Assembly (NCBI GenBank): GCA_902606115.1
Contig: CACLFM010000007.1
Coordinates: forward strand, 1 to 63,261
Length of the DNA: 63,261 nucleotides
DNA from: an uncultured Pelagibacteraceae bacterium
Lineage (GTDB): Bacteria > Pseudomonadota > Alphaproteobacteria > Pelagibacterales > Pelagibacteraceae
Direction: 5' to 3'
A model generated the notes under the pieces. It ran no database searches. It was not told the origin of the DNA and was given only the letters and a program-made list of their open reading frames with translations. Positions within the stretch are counted from its first letter, which is position 1. Each line of letters begins with the position of its first letter. This document shows, in pieces, positions 14,891-63,261 of the stretch. Position numbers and translations under genes: made by a program.

Positions 14891-15699
14891 AATTTTATAT
14901 TTAAAACTGTTGAAGGATCTAATTTTATGCCGAACCAATTTAACCTTATATCTAAATGTGGACCAGTTGACCTGCCGCTAGAACCTACAGTTCCAATTAT
15001 ATCACCTTGTTTTATAATATCACCCTCTTCTACAAATATTTTATCCATATGCATATATAGCGTAGAAATTCCATGTCCGTGATCAAAAATAAGTGTTGCT
15101 CCTGTATAATATAAATCGATTTCTGCAAGCGTAACTATTCCACTAGCCATTGCCTTTATTGGTGTCCCAAGTTTTCCCGCAAAATCAATTCCATAATGAG
15201 GTGATCTTGGTTTACCATTTAGAATTCTTTGACTACCGTATATTCCAGTGATTATCGCATCATCTAAAGGATTAATAAATTTATTTTTAAAAAAATTTAA
15301 ATTTGAATTTATCTCTCTGGCTTTAATTATTAATTTATTCTCTTTTTTTATTCTATCGTATACTTCTTTAGGAGGTGTAACTTTCTTAGGCTCAAGACCA
15401 TCTATTCTCTGAATTTTATATTTTCTTTTAAGTACTTTTTTTACTATCTTTTTTTTATTTCCTTTATAAATTTTGGTAATTACTATATCGTTTTTTCGAT
15501 CTCTATCTAACCCAAAAACAAAGTCACCATCCTTTGTGACCTTTATTTTTTTATTATCAATTTCAATTTCAGATCCAGGATCTGTCTTCCCCAAAATAAA
15601 ATGACCCTGGATGAATTTACCATTAAACTCTACAGATTTTGATTCGAATGAAAAAATGAAAACAAATAAAATAATATATTTAATTATTTTGCTGTCCAT
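14887..15699 (-). CDS. M23/LytM-fold protein with altered HxH motif
   Basis: A 270-residue exported protein with an N-terminal hydrophobic signal-like segment (residues 5-18), a beta-rich middle part and a C-terminal LytM/peptidase M23 domain (about 150-265). The first zinc motif is intact: His168 and Asp172 in HYGIDFAG. The last metal-site motif, normally HxH, reads GPHLD (His248, Asp250). M23 enzymes cut peptidoglycan cross-links; proteins with altered metal sites often act as activators of amidases. The change to Asp may keep or lose zinc, so activity is uncertain. The ATG at 15699 overlaps the SDR gene end by 16 bases, which puts a cell-wall protein inside a metabolic operon. Confidence 0.85.
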   Translation of the reverse strand: MDSKIIKYIILFVFIFSFESKSVEFNGKFIQGHFILGKTDPGSEIEIDNKKIKVTKDGDFVFGLDRDRKNDIVITKIYKGNKKKIVKKVLKRKYKIQRIDGLEPKKVTPPKEVYDRIKKENKLIIKAREINSNLNFFKNKFINPLDDAIITGIYGSQRILNGKPRSPHYGIDFAGKLGTPIKAMASGIVTLAEIDLYYTGATLIFDHGHGISTLYMHMDKIFVEEGDIIKQGDIIGTVGSSGRSTGPHLDIRLNWFGIKLDPSTVLNIKL

Positions 15700-35822: not shown

Positions 35823-36990
35823 ACAAAAAAAAACACTAAATTTAAATTTCGGACCTCAGCACCCTGCTGCACACGGTGTTTTAAGATTAATACTAGAATT
35901 AGATGGTGAAATAGTTGAAAAAGCTGATCCTCACATAGGCTTATTACACAGGGGTACTGAAAAATTAATTGAAAACAAAACTTACTCCCAAGCTATACCT
36001 TATTTTGATAGACTTGATTATGTAGCACCTATGAACCAAGAACATGCATTTGCTTTGGCTATTGAAAAAATAATGGGTATTGAAGTTCCAATCAGAGGTC
36101 AATATATCAGAGTAATATTTTGTGAGATTGGAAGAATATTAAGTCATATTTTAAATATTACTACACAAGCTTTAGATGTTGGTGCTTTAACCCCTTCACT
36201 TTGGGGGTTCGAAGAAAGAGAAAAGTTAATGGGTTTTTATGAAAGAGTTTCTGGTTCAAGACTGCATGCCAACTATTTTAGACCAGGTGGAGTTCATAAA
36301 GATTTACCAAGAGGTTTAGAAAAAGATATACTTGATTTTTGTAAAACATTTCCAAAGATAATTGATGATTTAGAAACATTACTGACTGATAACAGAATAT
36401 TTAAACAAAGAAACGTTGATATTGGTATTGTATCCAAAGAGGATGCGTTAAATTACTCATTTTCTGGCGTAATGCTCAGGGGCTCAGGAATTCCTTGGGA
36501 CTTAAGAAAATCACAACCATATGATTGTTACGAACAAATTAATTTTAGAATACCTGTTGGAAAAAACGGAGATTGTTACGACAGATATTTATGCAGAATT
36601 GAAGAAATGAGGGAAAGTGTGAAAATCATTGAACAATGTTTGCAACACTTACCTAAAGGACCAGTAAAATCACTTGATAATAAGATAACTCCACCATCTA
36701 AAAAAGATATTAAAGAGTCTATGGAAGCTCTCATACATCATTTTAAATTATTTACTGAGGGTTATAGGGTTAAAAAAGATGAAATTTATACAGCTGTAGA
36801 AGCACCCAAGGGTGAATTTGGTGTATATTTAATTTCAGATGGCACTAATAGACCATATAAATGCAAAATAAGAGCACCTGGTTTTTCCCATCTTCAAGCC
36901 ATGGATTATTTGATCAAAGGCCATATGTTAGCAGATGTGCCTGCTGTCTTAGGTTCTTTAGATATAGTTTTTGGGGAGATAGATCGATGA
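35815..36990 (+). CDS. nuoD: NADH-quinone oxidoreductase subunit D
   Basis: The 49-kDa subunit that forms the quinone pocket with NuoB, 391 residues. [14 protein letters not shown] near residues 12-25 contains the conserved His that contacts quinone. [12 protein letters not shown] near 41-52 and a C-terminal segment ending in [13 protein letters not shown], the usual family terminus, complete the match. The stop overlaps the nuoE start as ATGA. Confidence 0.97.
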
Positions 36991-53899: not shown

Positions 53900-54574
53900 A
53901 TGATTGAATTTAATAATATATCGAAAAGTTATTTTACATCTAAAAAAATTGAAGTTTTGAAAAATATAAATTTTATTTTCAAACCTGGAAAAATATATTC
54001 CTTAATTGGTCCATCTGGGTCTGGAAAATCAACATTGCTAAATTTAATTTCTTTAATAGATAAGCCATCGAATGGTTTTATCAAACTAAACAATATTAAA
54101 ATAGACGATAACGATATTGATCAAAGAGACACTATTAGGTCCAAAAAGATTGGAATAATCTATCAAGATAAAAATTTATTATCTGATTTTACATCATTAG
54201 AAAATGTTTATATGGCAAGACTATCTATAGACGATAATAAAAAGAAAGCAGTTTTAGATGCTAAAAGTATAATTAAAAAGGTTGGATTGGATAAAAGATT
54301 AAGTCATCTACCAAGTGAATTATCTGGTGGAGAATCACAACGAATAGCAATATCCAGAGCATTAATAAATTCACCTGATATAATTTTAGCTGACGAGCCA
54401 ACAGGAAATTTGGACCATAAAAATGCTTCTGATATATTTAAATTACTATTAAGTCTGAAAAATAAAAAAAGAATAATTATATTTGCAACTCATAATAGAT
54501 ATTTTGCAGATATGTCTGATTGTAAATTAAGTTTAATTAATGGTAAAATAACTTCCATTAATGTTAGAAACTAA
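53900..54574 (+). CDS. lolD: Lipoprotein-releasing ABC transporter ATPase
   Basis: A 224-residue ABC ATPase. Walker A GPSGSGKST is near residues 36-44, the Q-loop IYQDKNLL near 89-96, the signature LSGGESQRIAISRAL near 143-157, and Walker B IILADEPTGNL near 162-172, followed by the switch His in ATHNR. The gene order lolC-lolD confirms the role as the energiser of lipoprotein release. It overlaps dnaE by 14 bases. Confidence 0.94.
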   Translation: MIEFNNISKSYFTSKKIEVLKNINFIFKPGKIYSLIGPSGSGKSTLLNLISLIDKPSNGFIKLNNIKIDDNDIDQRDTIRSKKIGIIYQDKNLLSDFTSLENVYMARLSIDDNKKKAVLDAKSIIKKVGLDKRLSHLPSELSGGESQRIAISRALINSPDIILADEPTGNLDHKNASDIFKLLLSLKNKKRIIIFATHNRYFADMSDCKLSLINGKITSINVRN

Positions 54575-57500
54575 AAAATATTTTAATCATTTTAAATTAC
54601 ATACCCAGTATTCAATTTGCGAAGGAGCTATAAAAATTGAGGATTTAGAAAAATATTGCAAAAATAACAAAATTAAATCGATAGGTATCTCAGATACATC
54701 TAATTTATGTGGTGCATTACAATTTTCAGAAACGGTATCAAAGTCAAAAACACAACCAATTATTGGATCTCAAATTAAATTTAAACACAAAGATTTGATC
54801 GGTTTAATACCAATTATAGCAAGAAATTATATAGGATATAAAAATATAGTTAAATTATCTTCTAATTCTTATCTAAGTCACAAAAATTTTAATGAACCTT
54901 TTTGTGAATTTAATGACTTAAATAAATATAAAGATGGTCTTATAATTACATTAGGTAGTTTAAATAGTTTGGTAGGTGATTTATTTAAAAAAGACAGATT
55001 AGGTGAGATAAAAGAAATTTATATTTTTTTAAAAGATTTATTAAAAAATAATTTTTATATAGAAATACAAAGACATAATGATATAAATGAAAAAAATTTA
55101 GAAATATATAATTTAAATTTATCTCATCAATTGAATATTCCTATAATAGCGTCGCATGAAGTATATTATTTAGAAAAAAATTTACATGAAGCACATGATG
55201 CATTAATGTGTATTGGTTCAAAAAATTATATTAATGACAAAAATAGATTAAAACTTTCAGATAATCATTATTTAAAAAATGATGATGAAATGTACAAATT
55301 ATTTTCTGATCTCCCTGAAGCATTAGAAAATAATTTTAATTTACCTTTAAGATGCAATTATAGACCCACTACTTCAAAACCTTTACTACCCAATATTGGA
55401 TCGAAAGAAACTTTTACTGCAGATGACATTATTAAAAAAGAAGCCGAAAAAGGCTTAAAGGAAAGAATCTCAAAAAATTTTAATGGAAATTCTGAGACTA
55501 AATTAAATGAGTATCATACTAGGCTTAATCATGAAATTAATATTATTTGCAAAATGAATTATGCCAGTTATTTTTTAATAGTTTCTGATTATATAAAATG
55601 GGCAAAAGAAAATAATATTCCCGTAGGCCCTGGAAGAGGATCTGGAGCTGGATCGCTTGTTGCTTGGTGTTTATCTATCACAGATGTTGACCCAATAAAA
55701 TTTGATCTAATTTTTGAGAGATTTCTTAATCCTGATAGAATTTCAATGCCAGATTTTGATATTGATTTTTGTGAGGATAAACGAGATTTAGTTTTTGAAT
55801 ATCTAAATAATAAATATCCAGGATCTGTTGCACATATAATTACATTTGGGAAACTTAAAGCACGGATGGTAATTAGAGATGTGGGACGAGTAATGGGTTT
55901 ACCTTATGGATTTGTTGATAGTATTTGCAAGATAATACCTTTCGACCCATCTAGACCAATGAATTTGAGTCAATGTATAAACTCAGAGCCCAAACTTCAA
56001 AAATTAATTAAAGAAGATAAAAGAGTAGAACGACTTATTAATTTATCTTTAAAATTAGAGGGATTAAATAGAAATTTTGCAACTCATGCGGCAGGTGTTG
56101 TAATCGCAGATAAAAATCTTTCTGAAACAGTGCCACTTTACAAAGATCCATCTTCTAACTTATTATTACCATCAACACAATTTGATATGTACTCAGCAGA
56201 AAATGCAGGGCTCATTAAATTTGATTTTTTAGGTTTAAAAACTCTTACAGTTATTAATAAGACACAAGATTTGATAAAAGAAAAGTTCAAAGAATTTGAT
56301 ATTAAAAATATTAAATATAATGATGAAAAAGTATACGACCTACTATCATCTGGTAAAACTATTGGTCTATTTCAACTTGAAAGTTCTGGAATGAGGGAAG
56401 CATTAATGCAGATGAAACCAAACCAGCTAGAAGATATCATAGCACTTGTTGCATTATATAGACCAGGTCCAATGAGCAATATTTCAATTTATAATGATTG
56501 CAAACATGGAAAAAAGGAACCAGATTATTTACATCCAAAATTGAAAAAAATATTAAAACCAACATATGGTGTAATAATTTACCAAGAACAAGTAATGCAA
56601 ATAGCCCAAGCGTTATCTGGTTTTTCTCCTGGTGAGGCTGACTTACTTAGACGAGCTATGGGAAAAAAAAAAAGAGCTGAACTAGAAAGACAAAAAAGTA
56701 GATTTGTTGAGGGTGCATTTAAAAACGGTATAAGCAAAGATATTGCTGCTGGTATATTTTTAAAAATTGAACCATTTGCTGAATATGGGTTTAATAAAAG
56801 TCACGCTGCAGCCTATGCCATAATTGCTTACCAAACTGCATATCTTAAGACCCATTTTCCAAATGAATTTTTTGCAGCATCTATGTCTATGGAACTATCT
56901 AATCAAAAAAAATTAAGTGAATTTTGTGAGGAAATTAAAAGATTAGATATTGAAATTATTAGGCCAGATATAAACAAATGTTTCGCAGATTTTTATTCTG
57001 AAAACAATAATTTTTATTATGCCTTAGGAGCCATTAAAAATGTAGGTTATGAATCTATCTCAAATATAGTAAGTGAGAGAGAAAAAAATGGAAAATTTAA
57101 ATCGATTTCAGATTTTCTGAACAGAGTAAACCCAAAAGACATAAATAAATTACAACTAGAGGGACTCGCTAAAGCAGGTGCTTTTGATAGTATTTTTAAT
57201 AATAGAAGTGCTTTTTATAACTCCATACCTAATATAATTCTCAAATCTAAAAACATATTTGAAAATAAATCACAAAATCAAATTGAATTATTTTCCTCTA
57301 AAGAAAATTTTGACAATCAACAGATTTTTAAAGATGAACCAGAATGGAAATTTCAAGACAAAATGTCAAAAGAGTTTGAAACTATCGGATTCTATTTGTC
57401 AGATCATCCCTTAAATCAATACAAGGATATATTTAATGAATATAACATTACAAAATATTCTGATTTTATTAATGACAGAAACCAGTCAGAAAGTATGGTC

Positions 57501-57959
57501 GCATCAACAATCTTGAAAATTCAAGAAAAAAAAACGCAAAAAGGAACTTCTTATGCAATAATTAAATTTTCTGACTTAGGTGGCGTTTTCGAGTTATTTG
57601 TTTTTTCTGACATTCTTGAGGTTAATAGAGAAAATATTAAAGAAAGTAAATCTGTTATAATTACATTATCAAAAACATTTAATGAAAGTGATCAAAAGAT
57701 AAGGATAAATGTTAAAAAAATTATTCCATTAGACGACATTCTTAATAAACCTATAAACAATTTAAAAATTAAGATTAACAATTTTGAAAATTTTCATTTA
57801 TTATCAAAAATATTGGATACCAAAGGCAATGTTAAGGTTATTTTTGAAGTATTGAAAAATAACAAGAAATTTACCCTTAAATTAAAGAATAAACGATTTG
57901 TAGATAAAAACATTTTAAATTCTATTAAAAATCAAGGTATTTTAGCATCTATTTTTTAA
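54561..57959 (+). CDS. dnaE: DNA polymerase III alpha subunit
   Basis: The replicative polymerase, a DnaE1-type C-family enzyme of 1132 residues. The N-terminal PHP domain begins with FKLHTQYSICEGA. The palm has GPGRGSGAGSLVAW near residues 357-370 and the catalytic PDFDIDFCEDKRD near 399-411, with the third Asp later (LIKFDFLGLKTL near 552-563). FNKSHAAAYAIIAYQTAYLK near 744-763 belongs to the fingers. The OB domain and tail are Lys/Asn-rich. It closes the run that began at nuoA; a promoter for rpsB follows within 10 bases. Confidence 0.96.
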   Translation: MLETKKYFNHFKLHTQYSICEGAIKIEDLEKYCKNNKIKSIGISDTSNLCGALQFSETVSKSKTQPIIGSQIKFKHKDLIGLIPIIARNYIGYKNIVKLSSNSYLSHKNFNEPFCEFNDLNKYKDGLIITLGSLNSLVGDLFKKDRLGEIKEIYIFLKDLLKNNFYIEIQRHNDINEKNLEIYNLNLSHQLNIPIIASHEVYYLEKNLHEAHDALMCIGSKNYINDKNRLKLSDNHYLKNDDEMYKLFSDLPEALENNFNLPLRCNYRPTTSKPLLPNIGSKETFTADDIIKKEAEKGLKERISKNFNGNSETKLNEYHTRLNHEINIICKMNYASYFLIVSDYIKWAKENNIPVGPGRGSGAGSLVAWCLSITDVDPIKFDLIFERFLNPDRISMPDFDIDFCEDKRDLVFEYLNNKYPGSVAHIITFGKLKARMVIRDVGRVMGLPYGFVDSICKIIPFDPSRPMNLSQCINSEPKLQKLIKEDKRVERLINLSLKLEGLNRNFATHAAGVVIADKNLSETVPLYKDPSSNLLLPSTQFDMYSAENAGLIKFDFLGLKTLTVINKTQDLIKEKFKEFDIKNIKYNDEKVYDLLSSGKTIGLFQLESSGMREALMQMKPNQLEDIIALVALYRPGPMSNISIYNDCKHGKKEPDYLHPKLKKILKPTYGVIIYQEQVMQIAQALSGFSPGEADLLRRAMGKKKRAELERQKSRFVEGAFKNGISKDIAAGIFLKIEPFAEYGFNKSHAAAYAIIAYQTAYLKTHFPNEFFAASMSMELSNQKKLSEFCEEIKRLDIEIIRPDINKCFADFYSENNNFYYALGAIKNVGYESISNIVSEREKNGKFKSISDFLNRVNPKDINKLQLEGLAKAGAFDSIFNNRSAFYNSIPNIILKSKNIFENKSQNQIELFSSKENFDNQQIFKDEPEWKFQDKMSKEFETIGFYLSDHPLNQYKDIFNEYNITKYSDFINDRNQSESMVASTILKIQEKKTQKGTSYAIIKFSDLGGVFELFVFSDILEVNRENIKESKSVIITLSKTFNESDQKIRINVKKIIPLDDILNKPINNLKIKINNFENFHLLSKILDTKGNVKVIFEVLKNNKKFTLKLKNKRFVDKNILNSIKNQGILASIF

Positions 57960-57967
57960 TAAAATAC

Positions 57968-57996
57968 TTGCCTTTAAGCTATAAAGTAATTATTAA
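57968..57996 (+). promoter_or_regulatory. Sigma-70 promoter of the rpsB operon
   Basis: TTGCCT (57968-57973) and TATTAA (57991-57996) are 17 bases apart, directly after the dnaE stop. Transcription would start near 58003, just before the structured leader. This is a good match to the sigma-70 consensus and fits a growth-related ribosomal operon. Confidence 0.55.
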
Positions 57997-58004
57997 ACTT
58001 AAAA

Positions 58005-58078
58005 ACTCACACAGTTAGTGGTTTAATACCTCCGGTCCTTAAGTGGAAATAACTGTGGCGGAATAACCGGGAAAAAAT
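58005..58078 (+). ncRNA. rpsB leader RNA with predicted pseudoknot
   Basis: Stem 1 pairs CACAGTTA (58010-58017) with TAACTGTG (58050-58057), an exact 8-bp match. The loop contains CCGGT (58032-58036), which can pair with ACCGG (58066-58070) downstream of the stem, forming an H-type pseudoknot. The second strand lies 8-12 bases before the rpsB ATG, over the place of the ribosome binding site. Ribosomal protein S2 is known to repress its own mRNA through a leader structure in other bacteria, and a structured rpsB leader has been proposed for Pelagibacter. Autoregulation here is inference. Confidence 0.65.
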
Positions 58079-58843
58079 ATGAAAATACCAAACTTATCAA
58101 TCGAACAATTATTAGAAGCAGGAGTACATCTGGGTCATAAAACTCTTAGATGGAATCCTAAAATGAAAAAATACATTTTTGGAAAAAGAGATGCAGTACA
58201 CATTATAGATCTTACACAAACTTTAGAATTAACAAATAAAGCTCTAGAAAAAATATATGAAGTAATTTCTAATAATGGAAAAGTATTATTTATCTCTACA
58301 AAAAAACAAGCATCAGAATCTATAGCAGAATTAGCCAAGTCCACAGGTCAATACTTTGTTAATTATAGATGGCTTGGTGGGATGCTCACTAATTGGGGCA
58401 CCATATCTAATTCAATTAAAAAATTACAAAGAATAGAAATAGATCTAAAAGCAGAAAACCGTGGCTTTACCAAGAAAGAACTTCTTAAAATGGGTATACA
58501 AAGAGATAAACTTCAAAGGTCTTTAGGTGGTATTTCGGAAATGAAAAAAATACCTGATTTAGTTTTTATTATTGACACTAATTATGAGTCTTTAGCAATT
58601 AAAGAGTCTATTAAGCTTAACATTCCTATAATTGCAATTTTAGATACAAATTCAAACCCAGATGGCATTGATTTTCCAATTCCTGGTAACGATGATGCAA
58701 GGAGATCAATTGACTTATATTGTAGCTTGATAAAAGAAACAATAAATAATGCTAACAAAGAATCTCCAAAAGTAGAAGAAAAAAAAATAGTCGATAAACT
58801 CAAAAAAGAAGATAATGCTCTTCCAAACAAAAAGTTAAATTAA
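58079..58843 (+). CDS. rpsB: 30S ribosomal protein S2
   Basis: A 254-residue S2 protein. [19 protein letters not shown] near residues 11-29, [13 protein letters not shown] near 33-45, [10 protein letters not shown] near 97-106 and the C-terminal [29 protein letters not shown] are diagnostic. A Lys/Glu-rich tail follows. It is the first gene of the translation/envelope operon and probably feeds back on its own leader. tsf starts 10 bases later. Confidence 0.97.
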
Positions 58844-58853
58844 ACTTTTTAAA

Positions 58854-59705
58854 ATGGCTGATATCGAAAAAATAAAAAAACTGAGATCTTTAAGTGGAGC
58901 TGGTTTTAAAGATTGTAGCTCGGCTTTAGATGATTCTAATGAGGATATTGAAAAAGCAATTGAGATTTTGAGAGTTAGGGGTATTTCTAAAGCTTCAAAA
59001 AAAATGTCAAGATCTGCAAACGAAGGGTTAATTTCAATTTCTGAAAATACTCAACAATCAACTATCTTAGAAATTAATTGTGAAACAGATTTTGTAGCAA
59101 AAAATAATGATTTCATTAATTTTGTCAAAGAGTTAAGTGATATTAACAACGAAGTTAAGTCTGATCGAGAAAAGTTATTATCTTCTAATATGAAAAATAA
59201 CAAAAATGTAAGAGATAATTTATTAGCATTAATAACAAAAATAGGTGAAAAAATTACAATTGGTAGATCTAAAACATTGAACTCCTCAAACTCCAAAATT
59301 TTTAAATACCATCATACTGTTGTTAAAGATAACTTATCAAAATTGGGTGTTTTAGTATCAATCGATACTAATGAAGAATCAGAAAAATTAAAAATTTTTG
59401 GCAAACAACTTAGCATGCATATTGCAGCGTCAAATCCTTTATCAATTGATGTTGAAGGTATAGATCAAGAAGTTTTAAAAAAAGAGGAAGAATTAATTGC
59501 TGAAGAACTTAAGATTTCAGGTAAATCAGATGATATAATAAAAAAAATTAGTTTAGGTAAAATAAATAAATTTAAGGAAGAAAGTTCATTACTAAATCAA
59601 CAATGGGTAATGGAGCCAAAAAAAAAAGTAAAAGATATATTAAAAGAATTAAACATAGAAAAATTAAATATACTTGAATTTTCAAGAATTAAAATTGGTG
59701 AATAA
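58854..59705 (+). CDS. tsf: Elongation factor Ts
   Basis: EF-Ts recharges EF-Tu with GTP. The 283-residue protein has the N-terminal UBA-like part [21 protein letters not shown], the core motif [14 protein letters not shown] near residues 75-88 that displaces Mg from EF-Tu, and the [10 protein letters not shown] segment near 184-193. The stop shares one base with the start of frr (TAATG). In most alphaproteobacteria pyrH lies between tsf and frr; here it does not. Confidence 0.96.
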
Positions 59706-60256
59706 TGTTTGATATAGAAAACTATAATGAGAAGATGAACAAAACTTTGGAAGTTTTTTATAAAGAATTAGGATCTTTACGTACAGGAAGGGCTAATGCA
59801 AATATGCTAGATTTAGTTAAAGTCGATGTGTATGGTCAAAAGATGCCAATTAATCAATTAGCTACAATAACAACACCTGAACCAAGAATGATAAATATAC
59901 AAGTATGGGATTTGAACAATGTTAATTTAATAGACTCTTCAATTAAAAAATCAGAATTAGGATTAAACCCGCAAATAGATGGACAATTAATTAGACTTCC
60001 AATTCCTGACTTAAGTGAGGAGAGAAGAAGTGAGATGAAAAAAATTGTTAAGACTATGGGTGAGAAATGCAAGGTATCGATTAGAAATATAAGACGAGAG
60101 GCAAATGATAACTTAAAAAATTTACTAAAAAGTAAAGACATTTCAGAAGATGATGAAAAAAAAAATGAAAAAGAAATTCAAGTTTTAACTAATAAGCATA
60201 TAGATTTAATAGATGAAAAGGTTTTATCTAAAGAGAAAGAAATAATGACTATATGA
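59705..60256 (+). CDS. frr: Ribosome recycling factor
   Basis: RRF splits post-termination ribosomes with EF-G. The 183-residue protein has the family pattern LGSLRTGRANANMLDLVKVD near residues 22-41, LATITTPEPRMINIQ near 52-66, LNPQIDGQLIRLPIPDLSEERR near 88-109 and the long helical arms at both ends. It overlaps tsf by one base and uppS by four. Confidence 0.97.
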   Translation: MFDIENYNEKMNKTLEVFYKELGSLRTGRANANMLDLVKVDVYGQKMPINQLATITTPEPRMINIQVWDLNNVNLIDSSIKKSELGLNPQIDGQLIRLPIPDLSEERRSEMKKIVKTMGEKCKVSIRNIRREANDNLKNLLKSKDISEDDEKKNEKEIQVLTNKHIDLIDEKVLSKEKEIMTI

Positions 60257-61586: not shown

Positions 61587-62755
61587 TGAAAAAAAAAATT
61601 GCAATTTTAGGTTCAACAGGATCTGTAGGAAGACAAACATTAGATGTAATAAGAAAAGATAAAAAAAATTTTGAAATATTACTTCTTACTGCAAATAAAA
61701 ATCATAGGTTACTTCTTAAACAAATAAAAGAATTTAAAGTGAAAAATGTAATCATAACAAATAACAAAAGTTACTTAATTCTTAAAAAAAGATTAAAAAA
61801 AGTTAATATTTTTAACAATTTAGAAAAAATAGATAATATTATTAAATCAAAATTAGATTACACAATGAGCTCAATTTCTGGTTTTGATGGATTAAAGCCC
61901 ACAATTAAGATAATTAAAAAAACTAAAACAATTGCAATAGCAAATAAAGAATCTATTATTTGTGGATGGAGCTTAATCAAAAAACAAATTAATAAACATA
62001 AAACAAAATTTATACCAGTAGACTCAGAACATTTTTCTATTTGGTCAGTTATTAAAGATGCTAATCCCAAAATAATCGACAAAATCATAATTACAGCTTC
62101 GGGTGGACCATTTCTAAATTTAAACAATAAAAATATAAAAAAAACACCTAAACTTGCAACAAATCATCCTAATTGGAAAATGGGTAAAAAAATTTCTACT
62201 GACTCTGCAACTTTAATGAATAAAGTTTTTGAAGTTATAGAAGCAAAAAAAATTTTTAATATAGATTTAGATAAATTTGATATACTGATACATCCTAAAT
62301 CTTATATTCATGCTATTGTAAAATTCAAAAACGGTTTGATTAAATTAGTAGCCCACGACACAGATATGAGAATACCTATATTTAATTCGATATATTGTGA
62401 TTATTACAATCATTTTAAATCTAACAAAGTTAACATTAATCTATTAAATAATCTTAATTTAAATAAAGTTGATAAAAAAAAATACCCACTGATTAATATT
62501 TTAAAAATAGTACCAAAAAAAGATACTTTATTTGAGACCTTATTAGTATCTATCAATGATGAGTTAGTGAGTTTGTTTCTTAATAATAAAATAGGATTTG
62601 ATGATATTTCTATTAAACTTAAGCAAATAATTAACTACAAATTATTCATAAAATACAGGCGTAAAAAGCTACAAAATTTAACACAAATTGAAAAATTAAA
62701 TGAGTTTGTAAGATTGAAAACAAAATCTTTAAGTGTAATATCCAAAACTAAATGA
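61586..62755 (+). CDS. dxr: 1-deoxy-D-xylulose 5-phosphate reductoisomerase
   Basis: Dxr carries out the first committed step of the MEP isoprenoid pathway, which feeds UppS. The 389-residue protein has the NADPH motif GSTGSVGRQTLDV near residues 8-20, AIANKESIICGW near 118-129, the metal-binding PVDSEHFSIW near 144-153, TASGGPFLN near 170-178 and HPNWKMGKKISTDSATLMNK near 193-212. It overlaps bamA by 4 bases. The rseP protease gene usually found between dxr and bamA is absent here. Confidence 0.95.
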   Translation: MKKKIAILGSTGSVGRQTLDVIRKDKKNFEILLLTANKNHRLLLKQIKEFKVKNVIITNNKSYLILKKRLKKVNIFNNLEKIDNIIKSKLDYTMSSISGFDGLKPTIKIIKKTKTIAIANKESIICGWSLIKKQINKHKTKFIPVDSEHFSIWSVIKDANPKIIDKIIITASGGPFLNLNNKNIKKTPKLATNHPNWKMGKKISTDSATLMNKVFEVIEAKKIFNIDLDKFDILIHPKSYIHAIVKFKNGLIKLVAHDTDMRIPIFNSIYCDYYNHFKSNKVNINLLNNLNLNKVDKKKYPLINILKIVPKKDTLFETLLVSINDELVSLFLNNKIGFDDISIKLKQIINYKLFIKYRRKKLQNLTQIEKLNEFVRLKTKSLSVISKTK

Positions 62756-63261
62756 AAAGAATTCTTTTATCGCTGCTATTTTTAACCTTTTTTATATCAG
62801 TTAAAGCTGAAATAATTAATGATGTCAAATTAGAAAACAATATAAGAGTAAGTAAGGAAAGTATTATTTCTTTTGGTAATATAAAACTCGGAATAGATTA
62901 CACCGAAGCTGATATAAATCAAATTTTAGTTGACCTGTACGAGACAAATTTTTTTACAGACGTAAAATTGAAAATTAAAGATAATATCTTAATAATAAAT
63001 GTTAAAGAAAAAAAAATTATTCAAACAGTTTTAATAGAGGGAATTAAGTCTAAAGAAAATACTAAAAAAATTTTAAAAAATTTAAGCTTAAAAGATAAAA
63101 GCCCATTTGACAAATTTAACGCTAAACAAGATCTCATTAAAATAAAAGACTCTTTAAGCAGATCTGGTTATTATTTTGCTAGAGTTGATGTTACAATTAA
63201 AGAAAATAGCAACGATACATTAGATCTTATTTATAATATTGATACTGGTGAAAAAGCATTA
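62752..63261 (+). CDS. bamA: Outer membrane assembly factor BamA, N-terminal part
   Basis: The frame runs from the ATG at 62752 off the window end, giving 170 residues. It has a signal peptide (MKRILLSLLFLTFFISVKA, residues 1-19) and then POTRA-like repeats: the first has the turn YTEADINQILVDLYETNFF followed by DVKLKIKDNILIINVKE, and the second includes SGYYFARVDVTIKE. Its place after dxr matches bamA, the insertase for outer-membrane beta-barrels. The beta-barrel lies beyond the window. POTRA-containing TamA is a less likely alternative. Confidence 0.9.
   Translation, partial: MKRILLSLLFLTFFISVKAEIINDVKLENNIRVSKESIISFGNIKLGIDYTEADINQILVDLYETNFFTDVKLKIKDNILIINVKEKKIIQTVLIEGIKSKENTKKILKNLSLKDKSPFDKFNAKQDLIKIKDSLSRSGYYFARVDVTIKENSNDTLDLIYNIDTGEKAL

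Follow-up and report, generated by a model that had tools for sequence, protein, structure and literature searches.

The rpsB motif was described from "Candidatus Pelagibacter ubique", where it lies between dnaE and rpsB and is treated as a cis-regulatory element of the 5′ UTR (Meyer et al., 2009; PMC2704228). The P. ubique structure given there consists of a stem, P1, a 3-bp P2, a 2-bp P3, and a pseudoknot formed between junction J2-3 and the 3′ extension. A functional counterpart is known in E. coli, where, according to the relevant passages of a review (PMC10931766), S2 represses rpsB-tsf in vivo through the leader, S1 helps, and tsf is lowered as well. The same passages state that the E. 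coli S2 operator excludes the Shine-Dalgarno (SD) sequence and the start codon and that pseudoknots are a high-affinity target of S1.

We analyzed a stretch of 63,261 nucleotides (the window) whose S2 has as its closest named relative, at 92% identity, that of an uncultured Pelagibacteraceae bacterium. The Rfam model RF01815 ("rpsB") matched positions 58006-58087 over its whole length (model positions 1-132), with 37.1 bits and E=3.7e-6. Since this score is under the gathering cutoff of 40, a default Rfam scan misses the leader; at Rfam gathering thresholds, the window yielded three tRNAs only. The leader adjoins rpsB and has a long covarying P1, a junction with P2 and P3, and the J2-3 pseudoknot, as RF01815 does. 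What it does not reach is the gathering cutoff, which is a database threshold outside the published definition; P. ubique, the genome from which the motif was defined, belongs to SAR11. The window leader agrees with the motif as described in its dnaE-rpsB location, its P1, the lengths of P2 (3 bp) and P3 (2 bp), and a pseudoknot that joins J2-3 to the 3′ extension; it differs in its score, and structurally nothing about it is new. Another case for comparison is the SAR11 strain HIMB5, whose rpsB RNA is reported as known yet missing from the genome annotation (PMC6429828, 2019), a description that resembles the situation here. Given the RF01815 match, the motif of Meyer et al. (2009), the HIMB5 report, and the relative of S2, the bacteria to which the window belongs are already known to carry the element. 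Comparison with known rpsB leader families, which the earlier note on this DNA had proposed, thus identifies the leader by match, position, and structure as a SAR11 representative of the rpsB leader motif, already published from the same group in 2009.

The leader core occupies 78 nt between dnaE and rpsB (58004-58081, + strand, as are all features of the leader). The 5′ strand of P1, CACAGTTA (58010-58017), pairs with the 3′ strand, TAACTGTG (58050-58057), and 8/8 pairs are Watson-Crick in the window. The pseudoknot joins CCGGT in J2-3 (58032-58036) to ACCGG (58066-58070), near where an SD sequence would lie, and the rpsB AUG follows at 58079, 8 nt past this 3′ strand. The exact 8-bp stem and the 5-bp pairing just upstream of the S2 start were therefore where the earlier note had placed them. 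Its description of a tidy H-type pseudoknot is right about the pseudoknot; a bare H-type fold is too simple, because P2 and the 2-bp P3 make the element a three-stem junction. P2 is the hairpin GGT(TTAAT)ACC (58020-58030), in which GGT (58020-58022) pairs with ACC (58028-58030), and it is supported by covariation in SAR11. P3, CC(TTAAGT)GG (58037-58046; CC at 58037-58038 with GG at 58045-58046), is a reading by eye that was left unaligned in the SAR11 alignment and stands outside the covariation counts. Below P1 is an internal loop with a C-N-C-A segment on its 5′ side (58006-58009), aligned to RF01815 positions 1-4, and G-N-G-G on its 3′ side (58058-58061). The C-N-C-A segment reads CTCA in the window and CGCA in most SAR11 leaders.

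To compare relatives, we collected leaders via the S2 gene, using no RNA model. A family of 197 genomes, labeled SAR11 here from its named relatives, gave 150 leaders from 149 of the 156 genomes that carry S2 (one genome gave two; those of G023, G033, G072, G081, G129, G136, and G187 were left out). Removal of near-duplicates at a similarity ratio of 0.88 left 40 of these leaders, which make up alignment A1; a second alignment, A2, covers other alphaproteobacteria. When P1 and the pseudoknot were located by an automatic parser, 3 of 217 leaders could not be parsed (L052, L061, and L243), the wrong P1 register was chosen in L045, L216, L220, and L246 and in L158, L172, and L181, whose P1 is shifted by one, and CTGGT was picked in four SAR11 leaders despite CCGGT in the string. 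Counts were therefore taken from A1 and A2.

Both CCGGT and ACCGG were found upstream of the start in 149 of the 150 SAR11-family leaders. In the remaining one, L183, CCGGT faces ACCGA, so that one pseudoknot pair is lost. Among the 40 leaders of A1, both sides changed at 7 of the 8 P1 pairs and at all three P2 pairs, and 91.7% of the cells of the whole structure were paired, compared to 83.6% in shuffles. None of 500 shuffles reached the covariation score, and one of 500 reached the number of further pair types. The innermost two P1 pairs were broken in 15 and 20 of the 40 leaders, respectively; in P2, the third pair was broken in 11. In the internal loop, all three G columns of G-N-G-G were invariant, as were C58006-G58060 and C58008-G58058 (40/40). 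The pseudoknot was nearly invariant in A1, with no standard alternative pair; three cells at two of its pairs were scored unpaired, which we read as rows L109, L187, and L196 having slipped by one column, since their strings are canonical. As the pseudoknot hardly varies in SAR11, its covariation support comes from other alphaproteobacteria.

A search for S2 in other alphaproteobacteria gave a match in 280 of 289 genomes. A2 consists of 68 leaders, namely the window and 67 from this search: 27 from the best-listed S2 loci and 40 chosen for variety among the matches listed, so that the sample leans toward well-conserved S2. P1 showed double changes at all seven pairs counted, with 94.7% of cells paired; its pairing is poor as aligned in rows L219, L243, and L246. 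For the pseudoknot, 100% of cells were paired, with all five pairs present in 68/68 leaders when G-U is counted, and double changes occurred at three of the five pairs. The variants were CTGGT/ACCAG in three leaders, CCAGT/ACTGG in three, and ACGGT/ACCGT in one; three more carried one change that leaves a G-U, and 58 were canonical. None of 500 shuffles reached any of five measures, and versions slid out of register paired in 31-45% of cells. Thus, of the covariation that the earlier note had looked to SAR11 for, P1 and P2 supply it within the group and the pseudoknot does not, and compensatory changes in both of the helices it described are found once alphaproteobacteria beyond SAR11 are included. 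The pseudoknot covariants of these other bacteria also suggest clean compensatory mutants for tests of S2 feedback outside the gammaproteobacteria.

We also examined how far the element extends and how it fares in annotation. At E≤0.001, a search whose filters lose some weak matches, RF01815 matched 119 of the 197 SAR11-family genomes. None of the 197 had a match over the gathering cutoff, and annotation by Rfam defaults would therefore lack the leader. Among 14 control genomes, Caulobacter alone gave a match, likewise under the cutoff. Eleven leaders were scanned at the gathering level: of the three from other alphaproteobacteria, L217 passed and L223 and L228 failed, and all eight from SAR11 failed. 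The low score is thus not peculiar to SAR11, and the cutoff is strict outside SAR11 too. A covariance model built from the 40 SAR11 leaders matched 156 of the 197 family genomes and 74 of the 77 good ones, tallies identical to those of S2 itself (156/197 and 74/77); G157 and G187 have two S2 pieces but one leader each. In the window, this model found one strong site, at 88.9 bits, a score that is high by construction because the window is in the model; the next match scored 16.1 bits. That weaker match (36519-36580, E=0.029) is probably due to chance.

The leaders differ in how the structure is spaced from the start codon. The gap from pseudoknot to AUG is shorter in SAR11, with a median of 8 nt over the 150 leaders vs 17 nt in 66 other alphaproteobacteria (the pseudoknot strand was obtained for 66 of 67). 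Start codons are approximate in a few rows: L110, L113, and L115 deviate by 3-6 nt, and those of alphaproteobacterial leaders with a late start of the S2 match, such as L037, L041, and L055, may be off. A 4-nt SD core lies inside the gap in 6 of 150 SAR11 leaders vs 57 of 66 others, the latter count being slightly low because row L042 is wrong (a later ACCGA was taken); counting the last two bases of the pseudoknot, the figures are 13/150 and 62/66. Of the 54 ORFs in the window that reach 150 aa, 6 have a 4-nt SD core at -20 to -4, a rough share drawn from first-ATG ORFs of the window only. This suggests that initiation in the window mostly proceeds without SD sequences, and with SD cores scarce in the window generally, their loss before SAR11 rpsB probably reflects genome-wide streamlining. 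By position, the ACCGG strand occupies the place that the ribosome would take. Meyer et al. (2009; PMC2704228) do not use the term Shine-Dalgarno in their main text. Possibly, although we consider it doubtful, the SD has been lost in SAR11 and the gap has shrunk until ACCGG came to lie at the SD position, and S2 feedback there directly occludes an initiation site that has no SD, in contrast to E. coli, whose operator excludes the ribosome binding site.

Likeness to the E. coli leader is visible in the window itself, where the "t44" model RF00127 matched 57988-58067 with 25.6 bits (E=0.0013), under its gathering cutoff of 44. The two share the CACAC...GUGG frame of P1, the conserved GNGG and UAACC, and, in the corresponding region of the E. 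coli K-12 leader, a GGGGU/ACCCC complementarity. GGGGT occurs twice in the K-12 leader; the first copy, which the t44 model leaves mostly unpaired and which is followed by G as in alphaproteobacteria, appears the likelier partner of ACCCC. The E. coli leader differs in its longer interior, in a GAGG downstream, and in the distance from ACCCC to the AUG, which is 24 nt in E. coli and 8 in the window.

Could a chance stem and a chance complementarity in AT-rich DNA account for the element? The nested minimum-energy fold is unremarkable (-15.4 kcal/mol, z -0.48, with 58 of 200 shuffles equally good), and a motif scan of the window found two such places on the + strand, the other at 15542, and none on the - strand; 30 shuffled windows averaged 0.33 such places. 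Nested folding thus does not set the leader apart, and the argument for it is comparative, with strong covariation: no column shuffle of 500 reached the covariation score in either alignment, and both pseudoknot strands are exact in all SAR11 leaders except the one that breaks a single pair. Moreover, an exact 8-bp stem with a GC-rich 5-bp loop-to-downstream pairing arose in only 6 of 20,000 dinucleotide shuffles of the 78-nt core. We regard a chance origin as having next to no probability and as already refuted by covariation across the aligned leaders. The second motif of the window (15542-15600), in which an 8-bp stem is joined by a loop-to-downstream pairing of CCAGG, is itself near the chance frequency for the window.

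We therefore weighed what a real structure might do. Very probably, the leader, a copy of RF01815 and related to the E. coli t44 leader (RF00127), acts in cis from the 5′ UTR of rpsB-tsf as an S2 feedback switch. Observed here are the fold, the covariation in it, and its consistent occurrence with rpsB; that S2 binds the leader and represses through it, and that tsf is affected, is argued by analogy. S2 in its free form, perhaps joined by S1 as happens in E. coli, would bind the junction and the pseudoknot and stabilize the fold over the initiation region, and the stabilized fold would block rpsB translation and thereby lower tsf. In the portions of the literature consulted, we found no data on S2 binding or repression for an alphaproteobacterium. 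Feedback by S2 and joint control of S2 and EF-Ts, which the earlier note had suggested, are thus the best-supported reading through membership in the motif and analogy with E. coli, and for SAR11 they are a matter of inference. Overall, that note's observation was right, the structure is somewhat richer than it held, the mechanism is plausible, and the leader is not new.

Another role for a real structure would be mainly to aid initiation or mRNA stability in the SD-poor mRNAs of SAR11, for instance by providing a landing platform for S1 or the 30S subunit, with no feedback switch involved. The lack of a 4-nt SD core in the pseudoknot-AUG gap of 144 of 150 SAR11 leaders fits such a role, as do the rough count of SD cores upstream of just 6 of 54 long ORFs and the affinity of S1 for pseudoknots stated in the review passages (PMC10931766). 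However, the structure is also kept where an SD core is present (57 of 66 other alphaproteobacteria), and the E. coli counterpart is, in the same passages, an S2 operator; we judge this role unlikely. It is more improbable still that the element is an independent small RNA, although Rfam files RF01815 under "Gene; sRNA" and the E. coli annotation lists tff/t44 as a putative small RNA. Against this, only 8 nt separate the end of the pseudoknot strand from the AUG, the element accompanies rpsB across SAR11, and Meyer et al. (2009; PMC2704228) treat the motif as a cis-regulatory element of the 5′ UTR.

Upstream of the leader lies dnaE, encoding the DNA polymerase III alpha subunit (54561-57959). 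The + strand gene rpsB (58079-58843; TIGR01011, 310.4 bits, cutoff 76.3) encodes S2, the presumed ligand, and is the presumed first target; tsf, encoding EF-Ts, is the next gene of the unit (58854-59705, + strand; TIGR00116, 239.2 bits, cutoff 104). It is followed by frr, uppS, a cdsA-like gene, and dxr; the profile matches of cdsA and dxr score under their curated cutoffs. A 10-nt gap lies behind rpsB, and the genes then overlap by 1-4 nt, overlaps from which translational coupling past tsf, up to the lipid genes that the earlier note had named, is possible. A simple scan of 57850-58150 found no sigma-70 promoter or terminator.

Two features of the gene order stand apart from the leader. The usual place of pyrH, encoding UMP kinase, is between tsf and frr, and this gene is absent from the operon (58843-60256). 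Its profile, TIGR02075, gave weak matches only, at most 46.5 bits against a cutoff of 243.9, in 26/26 genomes of the genus, a set that includes one single contig rated 100% complete. The weakly matching frames (333-423 aa) are likely other proteins of the amino-acid-kinase type; adenylate-kinase-family matches were found once each in six of seven genomes. At the other end of the unit, the start of an ORF at 62752-63261 overlaps the end of dxr, and the frame runs off the window. Elsewhere, rseP lies between dxr and the outer-membrane assembly gene; here the ORF comes directly after dxr, without rseP between them, and by eye its product looks like an outer-membrane assembly (POTRA) protein.
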